A stretch of DNA of 64,000 nt from Pagrus major (lineage: Eukaryota; Chordata; Actinopteri; Spariformes; Sparidae). Below are positions 17,107-64,000 of the stretch, piece by piece. The translations under genes were made by a program, and so were the position numbers. Each line of letters opens with the position of its first letter. Within the stretch, counting starts at the first letter, position 1. The stretch lies in assembly GCF_040436345.1 (NCBI RefSeq), contig NC_133216.1:18357292-18421291 (forward strand). The letters are read 5' to 3'. The notes beneath the pieces are model-generated. The model saw only the letters and a program-made list of their open reading frames with translations, did not search any database and was not told the DNA's origin.

Positions 17107-18989
17107 ATGTCCGAAATGCTTGACGACATCCTCACAAAGGTGAGTCAAAGTTTTGTGGATTTTTTTTTTTCATTTTGTTTTGGAAAAAAAAGCCTTCATA
17201 AAGTTGGAGAGGGTTGGGTCTGTGGCTGTGTTTGTTTTTTCCTGCTCATTTTATTCCTCTGGGACTCACTGATCTGACAGTGGCTTCCTTTTGAACTGAG
17301 CGTAGTCACAGAGGAGTTCTCCATTCTAAAGAGATAATGAGATAAGGGAGACAGTCGGCGCTCGGTTGTTTGTTTCTTGAATTCCAATCCTCCACTCGCA
17401 GAATATTCACGAGGGACAGGATACGAGTCAAAAAATGCAATTATCTATATGTAATCTGTATTTTGTGATTTCATAGAAATGGCAGATAAGGATAATGGTT
17501 ATGTAACTTCTAGTACTGCACCGTTTCTTTGGTGACTTGATTTTACTTTTTATAATTGCCTTATTAATAAGTGCCTTTGGTATTTTTTTGTAATTTCTTT
17601 CTTTAAATATGAACTAGCTCTTGAATAAGTTTTCTGTAGCTGAATAAAAGAGTTAAAATTGAAATAGATTTGTTGTGGAAAGTAGGCATAAAGGGGAATG
17701 CGATGATGAATATTCACACAGTATATGAGTGGTATGAGTGTCTGTATGTTAACTATGTCAATCATCTGTCACAGAACTTCATGAACCTGGCCCTGGATGA
17801 AGTCTTGCTCTCGCAACAGTCTCAACTCAAAGTCCCAGGGCAGAGTCGCCTCAACCGGTCAACTTCCTTCTTCTCTCCCCCCTCCCCTCCTGCCTCCTCA
17901 GGCCACAGCATGAGCACCGAGCATGTTGACGACAATGGCAGCCCTTTTTGGCCATCCAATATCTGGGGCCAGGGCCCTGTCTCCAAACCCAAACAGCTGC
18001 CCTTCAGGCCCGACCGCTCCATGAGTCTGACCGAGTCCAGCAGCAGCCTGCTCAGCTCCTTCGCACAGCTGAAGAACCTGGAGGCTTTCACCTCAGGCCC
18101 TGCCACCACTGTGGCTCCACCGCCTGGCTTCCCTCCCTCATCTAACCTCCCACCCCAGGTCCAACCGATGGTGTCCCCTAATCGTTACAAGACTGAGCTG
18201 TGTCGTGGCTTCCAAGAGACCGGCAGCTGTAAGTATGGCAGTAAATGCCAGTTTGCCCATGGCGAGGCAGAGCTGAGGGGACTGTACCGCCACCCCAAGT
18301 ACAAGACGGAGCCCTGCAGAACCTTCTACAACTTCGGCTACTGCCCTTACGGCTCTCGCTGCCACTTCATCCATGAGGATAAAGCCAGCGGTGGTCCGTT
18401 ACCATCTGGTAAATTCCAGAATCAACAGCAACCTCCCACAGCAGCTCGCCACCAGCTCCGCCAGAGTGTCAGCTTCGCTGGGTTCCTGGGCTCCTCCCGC
18501 AGCTCACCTCCTCCATCATTCCCTTCATCATTCAATGATCCTAACATGGGGTTCAGCCGAGCTCCCTCTGTTTCTCCACCACCTGCTGATCTCCTCTCCC
18601 CAGTGTTTGACTCCCTGCCGCGGGAGGCAGCCGCATTCCAGTTTGGCAACCATCAGACCCGTGCCAGTACCGGAGACATCCACAACATTCCTCTCATCCT
18701 GGAGCCAAAGGCCTCACGCTGTGTGTGTGGCCATGGAAATAACTTTAACAGCAACAACAGCAGAGCCTTTGCCAACGTGGAGGATGGGCACCACCAGGAC
18801 GGCAAGCTGTTTCCTGGTCCTGGGGGATTCATGAAGCCTGCTGGACTCCAGCGCTTCTCCTCCGAGGACTCCCTGGAGGACAGCTACAGCAGCAGCAGCG
18901 GCGGCTCCAGTGGAACCGAGTCTCCAACGTTCGATGGGTCAGCCACCAAGAGGCTCACCGTGTTTGAACGCCTGTCCCTGTCCGACTAA
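17107..18989 (+). CDS. zfp36: Tristetraprolin-family CCCH mRNA-decay activator (ZFP36/TTP-like), two coding exons
   Basis: Exons are 17107-17139 ([11 protein letters not shown]) and 17775-18989. The intron is 635 nt with an AAG|GTGAGT donor and a CACAG|AAC acceptor, in phase 0. The 415-aa product has tandem CCCH fingers at about residues 149-211. Both have C-x8-C-x5-C-x3-H spacing, each is led by a YKTE(L/P)C motif, and they are joined by the [10 protein letters not shown] linker. The family binds UAUUUAU in 3'UTRs and recruits CCR4-NOT deadenylase. Other family marks are a PPPGF motif at 126-130 (TTP's GYF-binding proline motif), 14-3-3/MK2-type serines in RSTS (39-42) and LRQSVSF (239-245), and a C-terminal CNOT1-type motif [12 protein letters not shown] at the end. 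The second finger ([17 protein letters not shown]) and the PPPGF motif favour ZFP36 over ZFP36L1/L2. The open frame continues upstream of 17775 through the intron, but the spliced 11-residue start is preferred because it sits just after a TATA promoter and ends in a perfect donor. Ortholog assignment is moderately sure; family assignment is very sure. Confidence 0.93.
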
Positions 18990-45714: not shown

Positions 45715-48700
45715 ATGCCTTCTTACCCCCTCAGCCAGTTCACGGACCTGGAGGAGATGATGTGCAAGGTAAACGGAAAAGCGCAAAGAAAGCGGAGCAG
45801 GAAAAAAAAAAAGTTGGCTAGGTCAGGAGGGTGATGTTAGCCAGCTAGCTCGCTAGCTAGCTGCTCTGCTAACTTTCTGGCTAACTTTGCTCGCTTCATC
45901 TTTTTTCCAAGTGTGTGTTAGCGGATGCTGTCGCTGTCCCGTTTGAGCAGTTTGGTGGTAAACGGGGGCTTTGTCGAGCTTTTATCTGTTTTGTATGATG
46001 AGTAAGTTTGCCTGGACCTGAAGCTAACAAGTTAACAGTGAAGTTGACACAAAGTTGGAAGCGTTGTAGGGGTCACGATTCATCGCGACGGGTGGCCATT
46101 AAACTTCTTCTAACCAGCTAACTTGGTGATTTAGTCGCAATTAAAGTTGGGTAACATGGTAAATACAGCTTTCGCATATACGTTTATACTCTCACTGGCT
46201 TTTATTAACGAGAAACGACGCCAACAAGTCGAGTCAAAACACCACCGCAACTTCAGCAAAACTGAGCTAACTAGCTAACTTATGTGCTTAAATTAGCTCA
46301 TTAAAAGTTGCCAGCTAAACGTGTGTGAACGGTGTGTTGTTAACGTGGAAAAGTGTTTAAAGTACACGTTAAAGCTATACTTTTTACTGTAACTTACTGC
46401 ACGATCTGCATAGCACCGCTGTATCCTGCCCCTAGCTTACTTTCATCACAGTAGTAGATGCAGCTGTGTGTGGGATGCCAGGTTACACCTCTGTAGTCTT
46501 GTTGCTGTGGGTTTTTAACAGGTAGGAAAGTTTGCTGCTCTGTTGTGACTTGAAATGTCAAGTGGCCTCCTGTTGTGAATCCACCCAGCAAGTCTCAAAG
46601 TGCACATTTTCAAATGGCAGCAATGTAAATATTGTTTTTTTTTAATTTATCATGCTGTGGTCAGTCTGTAATCTGTCGTATATGTAAGCAGATCAGAGTT
46701 TTAACTGAGTCTTCGAGCTCACTACTCTGCATTAACTATTGCATCATGAGAGATCCTTATCTCCTGAGTTTTTATGTTCACTTTCATTTCTGTCCTGTAG
46801 CTGTTTTTATAAGAAAAACTGAGAGGAAATCTATCAGACAAAGTAAAGATGGACTGATTGTAAAAAAAAAAAAAAAAAAAAAACACCTAGAAGAGGATGA
46901 CTCAGACAGTTGCTGACTGAAGTACTGCAGAGCCGAACAAAAACATACATCTGCAGGGTTTGACAGAAGTTTTAAAAAAGTCTGTTTTAATTTATTCTTG
47001 TATGCAGTGTTGTATAAAGTACCCAAGAGTCATACTTCAGTCAAAGTAAAGATATCATGTTAAAATACCATTTTGGTCAAAGTAAAAGTCACTCATACAA
47101 ATAGTACTTGAGTAAAAGTCATACAGGAGCAAAAGTAGTTTTCTAGCAAAAACTGAACATAACTGTCAAAAGTAAAACTAAATTATATATACTGTATACT
47201 TTGGGTTTATCAATTTGCGGCCGGGCCAATTATCAGAGCAGATATTGACATTTTTCTGATTATTGGAATCAGTGTTTTTTGTTTTGTAAGTTGATTTAAT
47301 TTCGTTAAAAATGCAGAATGTAATCTGAAAAGTAACTAGTAATGAAGTTGTTAATGTAGTCAGTAAAAAGTACAATATTTGCCTTTAAAGTGCAGTAGTG
47401 TAGTGTAAAACAAAGAACCAGGACTTGAAAGATATTATTATTATTATTATTATTATCAGTCATTACTTGATTTGAGTTGTAAAGTGCATGGCCTTATGTT
47501 GTGTTCCTGTCTGTTCTTTCTACAGCAGTTACTGAATCTGGATTTGAGGGAGCAGAGCAGACCGCCACCACCCCTCAGCTTGGCCATGAGAACACCAGGT
47601 TACATCGGTCAGCCACGTAGCAACACGTCGTTCTCCCTCTCGTCTCTCTCCTGCCTCCCTGCTGATCCTTCAGACAGTGTATTCCAGACCTCCAGCCAAT
47701 GGGGGCAGCAGCCAGAAAGCCCTCTGCCCTCTCAGCTCGCCAATTCCACCCAATGGGGCAAGGCGGGCTTCCTGGCCCAGCGCTCCATCAGCATGGTAGA
47801 GACCAGCAGCGCCACAGCAGCAAGTCTAGGCTGGCCCGGTGCTGACATGAAGCACTCCCCATGTGACATCAGCCCCACTGCACTGACCAGCAGCTCCTCC
47901 TCGTCCACCTCGTCTGTTTCCTCTTCCTCGTCACGTTATAAGACTGAACTGTGTCGATCTTTCACCGAGAGCGGCTTGTGCAAGTATGGAGGGAAGTGTC
48001 AGTTTGCTCACGGGTTAGACGAGCTGCGGGATCTTAGCAGGCATCCGAAGTACAAAACCGAGCCGTGTCGCACGTTTCACACCATCGGCTTCTGCCCATA
48101 CGGTATGCGCTGCCACTTTGTCCATAACAATGAGGAGGAAAAGAAACACTCCTTCTCTCGCTCCTCCTCGTCCTCTTCCTCCTCCTCAAGCATTACCCAG
48201 CAGCCACCTTCCTCCTCTCGCCTGCACAGACCTCCTCTTGTCAGACAGAGCTTCAGCTTCGCCGGGTTTCCCTCTGCTCCCCAGCAGCCCCTTCAGCCTG
48301 CCCTTACTGCTCATCCTCCTCCTGCCACTGCGTCTTTCACGTGTGCTCCATCAGCTTCTCCTCCTTCCTGTGCCGACATTACCGACCTACTGTCTCATGC
48401 CTTCCTGGAGATGGACTCTGCCTTCGAGGCCTCCCCTGCCCACCAGTACCAGCCCCCCATGGGCCAGGCCGCTACAGCAGATACCCGCTCTCCATTCCTG
48501 CCCTCCCCAGACTCCGGCTGTTCTCCATGTGGGCCATCTCCGAACGCCTCCCCTTCTCTGAGACAGAGTCCCAGTGCCATCGGAGTCTTCCCAGGACCAT
48601 TGGGTGCAAGATCCCTGTCTTACACCTCTCTGTCAGATCAGGATCAGGATGGAAGCAGCTCTGCTAGCTCGCTCAGTGGCTCTGAATCCTGCGGAGGACT

Positions 48701-48779
48701 CAACGACGCCAACGGCAGACGTCTGGCAGTATTCAGTCAGCTCTCCGTTCCTGAGGATGCTACTGGGTTCTGCCTTTAG
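45715..48779 (+). CDS. Second tandem CCCH ZFP36-family protein (ZFP36L1/L2-like), two coding exons
   Basis: Exons are 45715-45768 (MPSYPLSQFTDLEEMMCK) and 47526-48779, giving 435 aa. The intron is 1757 nt with an AAG|GTAAAC donor and a CTACAG|CAG acceptor, in phase 0. An exon 1 ending in hydrophobic residues then CK matches the ZFP36L1/L2 pattern. Tandem CCCH fingers span residues 156 to about 220, both C-x8-C-x5-C-x3-H; the second reads [20 protein letters not shown], almost the L1/L2 sequence. Phospho-switch-like sites are RSIS (104-107) and VRQSFSFAGFPS (257 onward). Serine-rich runs flank the fingers on both sides. The C-terminus has RRLAVFSQLSVPE, the CNOT1-binding type motif, then an unusual extra ATGFCL. 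Like its neighbour 28 kb upstream on the same strand, it should bind AU-rich mRNAs and promote deadenylation. Which family branch it belongs to (TTP duplicate, L1/L2-like or a fish-specific member) cannot be settled without a tree. Confidence 0.92.
46664..46883 (+). repeat. 190-bp duplicated block, copy 2, with poly(A) tail, inside the CCCH gene intron
   Basis: Near-identical to 43371-43560, followed four bases later by an A-run at 46862-46883. The tail suggests retroposition; the flanks were not resolved. Confidence 0.85.
47005..47410 (+). repeat. Interspersed repeat in the intron of the second CCCH gene
   Basis: CAGTGTTGTATAAAGTACCC, AGTACTTGAGTAAAAGTC and AAAAAGTACAATATTTGCCT form the known fish 'AAAGTAC' repeat style. 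It is followed by an (ATT)n run at about 47433-47456. Confidence 0.6.
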
Positions 48780-58139: not shown

Positions 58140-60231
58140 TCACAACTTCTGGATCACCACCTGGAACTTACCTGGCAAAACAGAGAATAGGAGAGGTGAC
58201 CATTTGTTTAGAGCTTAATAGAGATATCAAACATTTTTTTAAGAATATGTTACTGAAGGATGCCCTCATGAATCTGACCAATATGTCCTGACTTCACTGA
58301 CCATATAATCAGTATGATTCCTCACATGAGTAAGAACCGTTATGCGATTATTGATAGCCAATGAGCATGTTATGTTACCTCACTCTACCAATCATGTAAC
58401 ACTTTCACACTGGACAAAAGCCACTGACACCTACTAACATCTGGCTTTTGTCTTTAGTTAAAAAGGGTACAATCTCAGATTATACCCTATCAATTCCAGC
58501 GCTGATTGTAATTTGGCGCATAAATATTTTTACATCTTTCTAGTAAAATGTAAAATAAAGTAACCATTGTGTCTTTGTCACTGGCCTCCATGCTGCCTTC
58601 TACCTTTCCCTGTTCTCTGGCGCATTGGAGATGTTGAAGTCAGGCCGACTCGTCCACAGACGATGTGAAAGGAGTCAATCTCCTATTTTAGTGGGCTTAC
58701 CCGTGTTAAAATAAAACAGCATATCTGTACTAATTTTGGTGTAAAATTGTAATAGATTGGTATTTGGATTGTACTTACAGGATGGCATAACAGAGACCTC
58801 TGCTGTCACCACGCTGTCCAAACCTAGGTTAGACAGCGCTCCTCTCACCACACCGCACGAAAAAGCGAGGTACTAAAAGTAAACACACACACAGAAATTA
58901 ATTGTAGCTACAATGCGATTGATCCTGATTTAAAAAAAGAACGGCAGTAAGAATGTATCGTGGTGTGTGAAGGAGAACGAGAGAAAGAGTGCACACTAAC
59001 CTTAGGAGCCTGATCCAGGTACTGTTTTCCATTGGATAGCTGAGTCAGCAGAGAAAACTTGTTGTCCTGCAGAACATAGGTACCCTATAGCAGAGAATAA
59101 ACACATGTATAGTATCAACCAGTAATACCAAATTTTAACCAGTGCTCAATATGCTTTTGTATATTTTCATTTCTTAATTTACCAATAAGGTTTCCTGTTA
59201 TTTAAAGACGCTTTTTGGGTTTCTGCCTTTCCTTTCTTGTGTTGCGGAGCATTTTTGTGCATGTAAAAGGTCTGCAAAGTGAAAAAGCCCAAAGTCCACG
59301 CCAAAAGGGGAGTTACTCTCTCCCACAGAAAAACACTGCTCCTGTACTGCTTGAAACGTCTGGTTTAGAGTCAAGCCTTTACTTCCATAACTTATGTCCA
59401 TCACGATGTAACAGGCGTTTTATAATTATGTATTTTTATATATTTATTATAAAATATATACACTCCAGTCAGTCTGCCGAAATCTCATTGACTGGAGAAA
59501 TAATTGTAGCTGACCAACAACCAGCTAAACACTACACACACAGCCCAAAGCGTGGTGTGCCATTTTTCGTTGTACCCTTGCCAGTCCACACCCTCTACAT
59601 TTTGATTGTACCTGATGGTTTGTTCTGAGGTTGTCAACCTGCCTCCTGAACACCTTCGTCCAGAAGTCTTTACAGACGAACTTCATTACATCCAACTCAT
59701 CCTTGAAGCTGGGAGAGTCCCGGGTCAACCTGGACAGAGCAAACATCAAAACAGACATTTACAGGATGCATGTCACACAGCATTAACTGCTGCACATACA
59801 GTATGAGGGTGTCCACCTACCTTTCGATGAGTCCTTGTCCCACTCTGAAGCCCATACTTTCAAGGACAGAAACACAGACAGCTCTGTCCTGAGGAGAGGA
59901 CATTAAAGCGGTTTAATTAGTAAGTGGACAACAATTAGCTTTATAAGTACAGTTTTGTATGTTTATTTTTATGGTCTGTCCTGTAAATGGTCATGTTGAG
60001 ACTACCATGTTATAATCAGATATAATCAGTGGTTATCACGGTGCAAGGTGAATCCAGACCACAGTGTAACTCACGGTTAAAGCTCTTCTGTATATTATGT
60101 GTCAACTGATTGATTCATGTCTTTACTGAACACACCTTGTTGTCCATCTCTCCTTTACTGGCTTGCTGCTCCTTGTAAACATGGGACACGATCTCCATAT
60201 GGAGAAAGTCAAACAGAGATTCGTCTGCCAT
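58140..60231 (-). CDS. trappc6a: TRAPP complex subunit 6 (TRAPPC6A/B-type, Bet3 fold), six coding exons
   Basis: Coding exons on the minus strand, in transcript order: 60136-60231, 59821-59888, 59612-59729, 59001-59084, 58779-58872 and 58140-58171. All introns are GT-AG and the frame is kept throughout, giving 163 aa (human 6A and 6B are about 158-159). The product begins MADESLFDFLHMEIVSHVY. It carries GFRVGQGLIER, the family signature KDELDVMKFVCKDFW, then DNLRTNHQGTYVLQDN, CGVVRGALSNLG and the ending CKFQVVIQKL. TRAPPC6 is a small Bet3-like core subunit of TRAPP, the GEF/tether for ER-Golgi and Golgi traffic. GTYVLQDN, APK and KFQVVI favour 6A over 6B from memory, as does the head-to-head neighbour bloc1s3, which adjoins TRAPPC6A on human chromosome 19. 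Family is nearly certain; 6A versus 6B is moderately certain. Confidence 0.95.
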
Positions 60232-60233
60232 TC

Positions 60234-60547
60234 CTGTCAAACACAGAAAAGGGGTTATATAGGCCAGTATAACGCTACCATAAAACGGTTTCACTTTATC
60301 TAGCTAGCTGTGCTCCGAAACACAAAAATTCGCCCCGCGTCTCAAGCAAGCTTAGCTTTAGCTAGATAGTTAGCCAAAGCAGCTAGCTAGTGTTTGCTAG
60401 CAACGTTCTCCAGGCGGTGATAACCAGTCTTTTCCTGTCTCGACATAAGAGAGATAATGAGGAAAAAAGTATAATACGTGTAACGTTGTGTATGGCATAG
60501 GTTGCAGTTAATAAGAAATAATAAAACAACGTTAACGCTACTGTACC
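60234..60547 (-). other. trappc6a: trappc6a 5'UTR intron and end of a noncoding first exon
   Basis: Two bases before the ATG the minus strand reads TTTGACAG|GA-ATG, a good acceptor. Upstream, TTACAG|GTACAG at 60545-60547 is a good donor. This implies a 5'UTR intron (60234-60546) and a noncoding exon whose 3' end is 60547; its start is not defined. The intron is rich in GCTAGC-like repeats. Inferred from splice signals only. Confidence 0.55.
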
Positions 60548-63876: not shown

Positions 63877-63999
63877 TCAAATAGGTGTATAGACGTACAC
63901 TAACACCACAACCAGCAGGTTGAGAAATGTGCCCACAATACCCACAATGCCAAGTATGTCTTCGAGGTCACCCTTGCATCTGCATGATTCAGGAGGCAT
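63877..63999 (-). CDS. TUNAR/BNLN-like single-pass membrane micropeptide (last or only coding exon, at window edge)
   Basis: The minus strand from ATG at 63999 to TGA at 63877 encodes 40 residues. A short polar and acidic start (PPESCRCKGDLEDI) leads into a hydrophobic stretch ending GTFLNLLVVVLVYVYTPI at the C-terminus. From memory, human TUNAR (48 aa) ends GTILNLIVIIFVYIYTTL: 10 of 18 positions are identical and most others are conservative. TUNAR sits in the ER membrane and modulates SERCA/calcium in neural and beta cells; that role here is inference. The frame stays open to the window edge (one more base), so the true start could lie upstream or this could be the last exon of a longer message. 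A possible acceptor (CATGCAG|ATG) within it cannot be excluded. Not seen: promoter or Kozak context. Confidence 0.6.
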   Translation of the reverse strand: MPPESCRCKGDLEDILGIVGIVGTFLNLLVVVLVYVYTPI

Positions 64000-64000
64000 G

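Follow-up and report, generated by a model that had tools for sequence, protein, structure and literature searches.

A probable TUNAR-family microprotein gene beside bloc1s3 in Pagrus major, one of three family copies clustered on the same contig

TUNAR, which we take to be the gene of the protein called pTUNAR or BNLN and to correspond to Pfam family PF21954 and zebrafish megamind, is the closest described relative of the locus reported here. It is spoken of as one gene in those parts of the literature on which we draw. PMC6886504 states that human TUNAR has been reclassified as coding. According to PMC8758570, mammalian pTUNAR resides in the ER membrane and binds SERCA2, and its overexpression speeds calcium clearance; the same paper attributes to other authors an action on SERCA3 in beta cells, and describes a 48-residue form together with one of 65 residues that might start at an upstream ATG. 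In zebrafish, the megamind morpholino was reported to have the same effects in a mutant without the targeted segment, indicating off-target action; redundancy is not raised in the passages concerned (PMC7155256). In open-licence literature, at the level of titles and the beginnings of abstracts, we found no paper that describes another gene of the TUNAR family; genome databases may hold automatic predictions.

We analysed a stretch of 64,000 nucleotides (the window; contig C2, positions 18357292-18421291) within a searched genome of 786 Mb on 25 contigs. A sequence-only reading of the window had claimed a 40-codon minus-strand frame at 63877-63999 with a hydrophobic C-terminal helix, akin to TUNAR and next to bloc1s3. 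The reading frame check returned the same letters, an intact minus-strand frame of 40 codons followed by TGA from 63999 to 63877. The features of the window on which the argument draws are the following.

63877..63999, minus strand: coding part of what is probably the TUNAR-like gene's last exon, with 40 codons running from the in-exon ATG to TGA (Pfam TUNAR E 3e-8)
63997..64000, minus strand: start codon at the window edge; the exon continues to 64017 (C2:18421308)
63901..63957, minus strand: the 19 residues of the protein with the highest hydropathy (mean 2.68; residues 15-33), which fall within the predicted helix
63526..63531, minus strand: AATAAA poly(A)-signal candidate of the same gene, 348 bases past the final sense codon
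61221..62683, plus strand: bloc1s3, convergent (tail to tail) with the TUNAR-like gene (two pieces match Pfam BLOC1S3, at E 5.6e-12 and 5.2e-13)
59627..60234, minus strand: upstream exons of a TRAPPC6A-like gene (Pfam TRAPP E 1.1e-8 on 59627-59740)

The 40-residue translation was compared with Pfam and passed the curated cut-off of PF21954 (33.9 bits against 27; E 3e-8), which upholds the proposed kinship. The alignment covers 26 residues only (residues 13-38, profile positions 21-46 of 48); the TUNAR N-terminal half, acidic N-terminus included, has no aligned counterpart in the window protein, and the full-length copy on contig C16 aligns over positions 1-48. AlphaFold2, run on the single sequence of 40 residues, predicted one helix at residues 9-37 (mean pLDDT 84.1, and 96 over residues 21-30), so that the hydrophobic C-terminal helix of the sequence-only reading also stands. 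No relative of the protein was found in the PDB at E ≤ 10, and NCBIfam, a prokaryote-oriented library, gave no match. These comparisons, made at the level of sequence, show that the window protein is a TUNAR-family member with a single predicted membrane helix at its C-terminus.

We searched the genome in six frames with PF21954, using the cut-off of 27 bits and 14 control genomes. The results showed six places at E ≤ 10, four of them over the cut-off, and none in the control genomes (0/14). The window exon scored 31.8 bits (E 1.3e-4), the lowest of the four copies; the other three were as follows.

C16 at 18.409 Mb: TUNAR, full length (93.2 bits in the genome search, 95.0 as protein)
C2 at 18.4855 Mb, minus strand: copy A (56.6 bits in the genome search, 57.7 as protein)
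C2 at 18.4848 Mb, minus strand: copy B (38.0 bits in the genome search, 40.2 as protein)

The remaining two places, on C9 and C15 (18.7 and 17.1 bits), were rejected as further family members, being below the cut-off and of low complexity by eye. A protein search of the genome with the 40 residues returned the same four copies and nothing further at E ≤ 10 (four candidates scored), the best matches of the window exon after itself being copy A and the exon of the C16 TUNAR. Thirteen alignment columns are invariant across the four copies, and the G-x-x-G, LNL and VY-x-YT positions are invariant in the helix of all of them. Copies A and B share with the window gene its strand, its cluster, the helix core and, by eye, the exon layout; copy A differs in having kept an acidic N-terminus, and copy B has a short one. 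A 173-column match between the sequences that precede copy A and the C16 TUNAR was considered as a conserved regulatory element and rejected because a 164-base piece of it recurs on many contigs (39 matches besides itself among the best 40 of 140 candidates). The piece upstream of copy A, C2:18486558-18486721 on the minus strand, is an AT-rich dispersed repeat.

Beyond base 64000, the exon of the window gene extends a further 17 bases to a pyrimidine-rich splice-acceptor candidate just past 64017, which ends TTTCTTTCAG (sequence TCTCTTTCTTTCAG). Since the exon reaches this candidate, the start codon chosen in the sequence-only reading lies within the exon. By eye, an acceptor candidate precedes the in-exon ATG by 18 to 39 bases in all four copies, and by 27 to 39 bases in the C16 copy, A and B. 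The window frame is therefore probably the final coding exon of a gene that is spliced and reaches past the window edge. The frame itself is intact as described; the splicing, like the further copies outside the window, goes beyond the sequence-only reading. A candidate upstream exon lies 1.59 kb further on (C2 about 18422898-18422948). It contains an ATG with an in-frame stop ahead of it, and its donor GAG|GTAAAT, which ranks second among 402 GT sites in 8 kb, joins in phase to give 63 residues. This form scored 32.0 bits with PF21954 (cut-off 27), and homology of its N-terminus to that of TUNAR was rejected as unsupported by alignment. The extension proves little because two of the four donors scoring at least 4, GAG|GTAAAT included, yield some in-frame ATG extension, and a 63-residue product is put forward here as only a possible one. 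The search for the true start thus brought to light an acceptor candidate and a candidate in-frame ATG upstream, and the in-exon ATG is possibly not the first. Exons this short are easily overlooked by gene finders with length limits.

The arrangement of the three copies on C2 bears on whether they are separate genes. Copies A and B lie 0.7 kb apart and the window gene about 63 kb from B; the three share one strand. Most of the larger gap is taken up by a satellite array of about 52 kb with a 172-bp unit (C2 about 18426927-18478726), delimited with Tandem Repeats Finder at its two end loci and with a lag scan along its full length. Because removal of the satellite leaves roughly 12 kb between B and the window gene, the layout fits a tandem cluster that was later split by the array. 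The array sits at the middle of the 36.8-Mb contig. The same unit also occurs on C1 near 27.62-27.71 Mb (253 matches, the best 40 of 484 candidates scored), and the matches listed are all on C1 and C2. The unit is of a length that we take to be alpha-satellite-like, and the array is possibly centromere-related.

The same order of A, B and window exon on one strand, with only 0.7 kb between the first two, would also be expected if the three were alternative last exons of one transcription unit, and each exon does seem to start at a splice acceptor and to stop on its own codon. We consider a single unit unlikely: about 52 kb of satellite separate B from the window exon, and a candidate upstream exon belonging to the latter lies 1.6 kb from it. 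We accordingly continue to treat the window feature as the end of a gene of its own.

The neighbours of the window gene were then compared with those of the C16 TUNAR. Pfam BLOC1S3 was found on two pieces of the adjacent gene, as the sequence-only reading had it, the first pieces of that gene being placed by codon bias and reading only. For the TRAPPC6A-like gene, the N-terminal piece had no Pfam match and was placed by reading; the gene is presumably 6A rather than 6B, given the neighbouring bloc1s3. The two genes stand head to head, about 1 kb apart, and we take TRAPPC6A and BLOC1S3 to be neighbours in human 19q13.32 too. Two genes of ZFP36 type, each with paired CCCH zinc fingers, also lie in the window (17766-18986 and 47523-48773, plus strand), about 29 kb apart; the second matches butyrate response factor 2 and tristetraprolin in the PDB. 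On the human map, 19q13 carries TRAPPC6A, BLOC1S3, CKM, VASP and ZFP36, and likewise ERCC1; 14q32 carries TUNAR, ATG2B, EVL, EML1 and CKB, and likewise HHIPL1.

The C16 block contains TUNAR, ATG2, an EVL-like gene, an EML gene 48 kb from it and a B-type creatine kinase, and the C2 block contains a VASP-like gene, an M-type creatine kinase, and bloc1s3 beside the TRAPPC6A-like gene. The Ena/VASP profile, which is short and also matched three of the 14 control genomes, one of them over the cut-off, exceeded its cut-off at five places: by eye, C16 and C22 (25.5 Mb) are EVL-like and C2 and C13 VASP-like, and the fifth, on C22 (5.2 Mb), falls outside this sorting. The best PDB match of the C2 piece is VASP. 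The creatine kinase piece on C2 scored 220 bits with M-type chains versus 196 with labelled B-type chains; that on C16 scored 218.1 bits with labelled B-type and 209.0 with M-type chains, its top chain (222.9 bits) being labelled 'creatine kinase' only. At the level of family, creatine kinase also matched on C1, C5, C8 and C12, and ATG2 on C18 as well as C16; at the level of domain, EML-type matches fell in 13 places on C1, C2, C10, C15 and C16. Second copies of the EVL/B-type pair lie on C22 and of the VASP/M-type pair on C13, with types assigned by eye only. Two families, Ena/VASP and creatine kinase, thus split alike between the blocks, and ERCC1 and the HHIPL1-like gene fit poorly. The ERCC1-type (Rad10) exons are on C9, not C2. 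The HHIPL1-like gene lies near A and B (C2 about 18513763-18524734, minus strand), with SRCR and Folate_rec over their cut-offs and GSDH below; the genome search with GSDH matched C5 and C16 only, and the fragment had no PDB relative at E 0.001.

Full-length TUNAR thus sits on C16 together with 14q32-type genes, and the window gene has bloc1s3 and a TRAPPC6A-like gene for neighbours, not the 14q32-type block expected of a TUNAR orthologue. For this reason the window gene is best read as a paralogue rather than the orthologue of TUNAR, as had been suggested from the letters. C16-C22 and C2-C13 look like pairs from the teleost duplication, with C16 versus C2 as the older split. On these sequence comparisons, the C2 cluster is likely a paralogue of TUNAR dating from the early vertebrate (2R) duplications and later duplicated in tandem; the 2R origin is held back from proof because of the misfits in ERCC1, the HHIPL1-like gene, EML, creatine kinase and Ena/VASP.

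A younger origin would make the C2 cluster a product of the teleost duplication (3R), paired with the TUNAR locus on C16, or else a copy that was transposed later. In its favour, the helix of copy A agrees with that of the C16 TUNAR at 76% of bases over 28 codons, the HHIPL1-like gene lies nearby and ERCC1 is elsewhere. This origin is nevertheless improbable, given that C16 appears to pair with C22 (EVL-like, B-type) and C2 with C13 (VASP-like, M-type), the C13 and C22 types being by eye only, and that synonymous sites between the copies are near saturation. A 2R-age split followed by tandem duplication is the history that we favour.

We compared the last 28 codons (the helix) of the window gene with those of the other three copies. 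Differences at codon positions 1/2/3 were 12/2/19 with C16 (pN/pS 0.38), 10/2/23 with A (0.25) and 11/4/20 with B (0.46), figures that overstate constraint somewhat because the copies were found via protein similarity. Synonymous sites are saturated or nearly so in all three comparisons, which suggests an old split of the copies; with 28 codons only, the duplication is not datable by a tree. The lowest profile score of the four and the diverged N-terminus might indicate a decaying relic whose frame is still open by luck. We hold this to be very unlikely, since the frame has no stop, an intact acceptor candidate and a poly(A)-signal candidate, and synonymous sites change at the higher rate. A chance reading frame, suggested by the short hydrophobic product and the weak low-complexity matches below the cut-off on C9 and C15, is scarcely credible against E 3e-8 over Pfam, E 1.3e-4 genome-wide, and copy A and the C16 TUNAR exon as the next-best protein matches.

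Taken with its copies, the window feature is in our judgement quite likely the last coding exon of a functional TUNAR-family microprotein gene, with an ER/SERCA-type role, 2R-age ancestry and a later tandem cluster on C2. The gene would be transcribed and translated into a product of 40 residues (63 with the upstream exon), short and polar at its N-terminus and with a single membrane helix towards the C-terminus. The protein would most likely reside in the ER membrane, as mammalian pTUNAR does, where the helix may bind a SERCA-type calcium pump and shift calcium uptake; by analogy, it could act as a calcium-pump regulator. Because the helix is conserved and the tail variable in the four copies, the helix is likely the pump-binding part, and differences probably stem from the tails. 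In the proposed history, the TUNAR locus would have been duplicated in the early vertebrate genome duplications, tandem duplication would have produced A, B and the window gene, and the satellite array would later have parted the window gene from the other two.

The family is a known one and this is an extra member; its place and number are unexpected. With three more copies in a single fish genome, the family would have a longer history, and natural helix variants would help to find pump-binding residues. A broader proposal, in which our confidence falls somewhat short of even, is that TUNAR belongs to a family dating back to the vertebrate genome duplications and represents one of its branches. 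The other branch, next to bloc1s3 in the 19q13-type block, would in fish have become a cluster of several microproteins that are directed at SERCA and differ in their tails. This cluster could hide the effect of losing TUNAR (megamind), and in other vertebrates the branch may persist without annotation or have been lost. Such redundancy is a possible reason to recheck fish megamind mutants.

Compared with known systems, the window protein resembles TUNAR in its single C-terminal helix, in the ATG within the apparent last coding exon and in scoring over the curated cut-off, and differs in its gene block, its unaligned N-terminal half and its length (40 residues versus 48). It has two cysteines near its start (SCRC) and ends in YTPI, whereas the C16 copy ends in YTTL. 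The regulins and DWORF, according to PMC8758570, are likewise small proteins with a single helix and an action on SERCA, and for the window protein this role is proposed by homology. The regulin LF-x-x-F motif is absent from the window protein, which has no LF in its 40 residues, and pTUNAR is reported to be likewise without this motif (PMC8758570).
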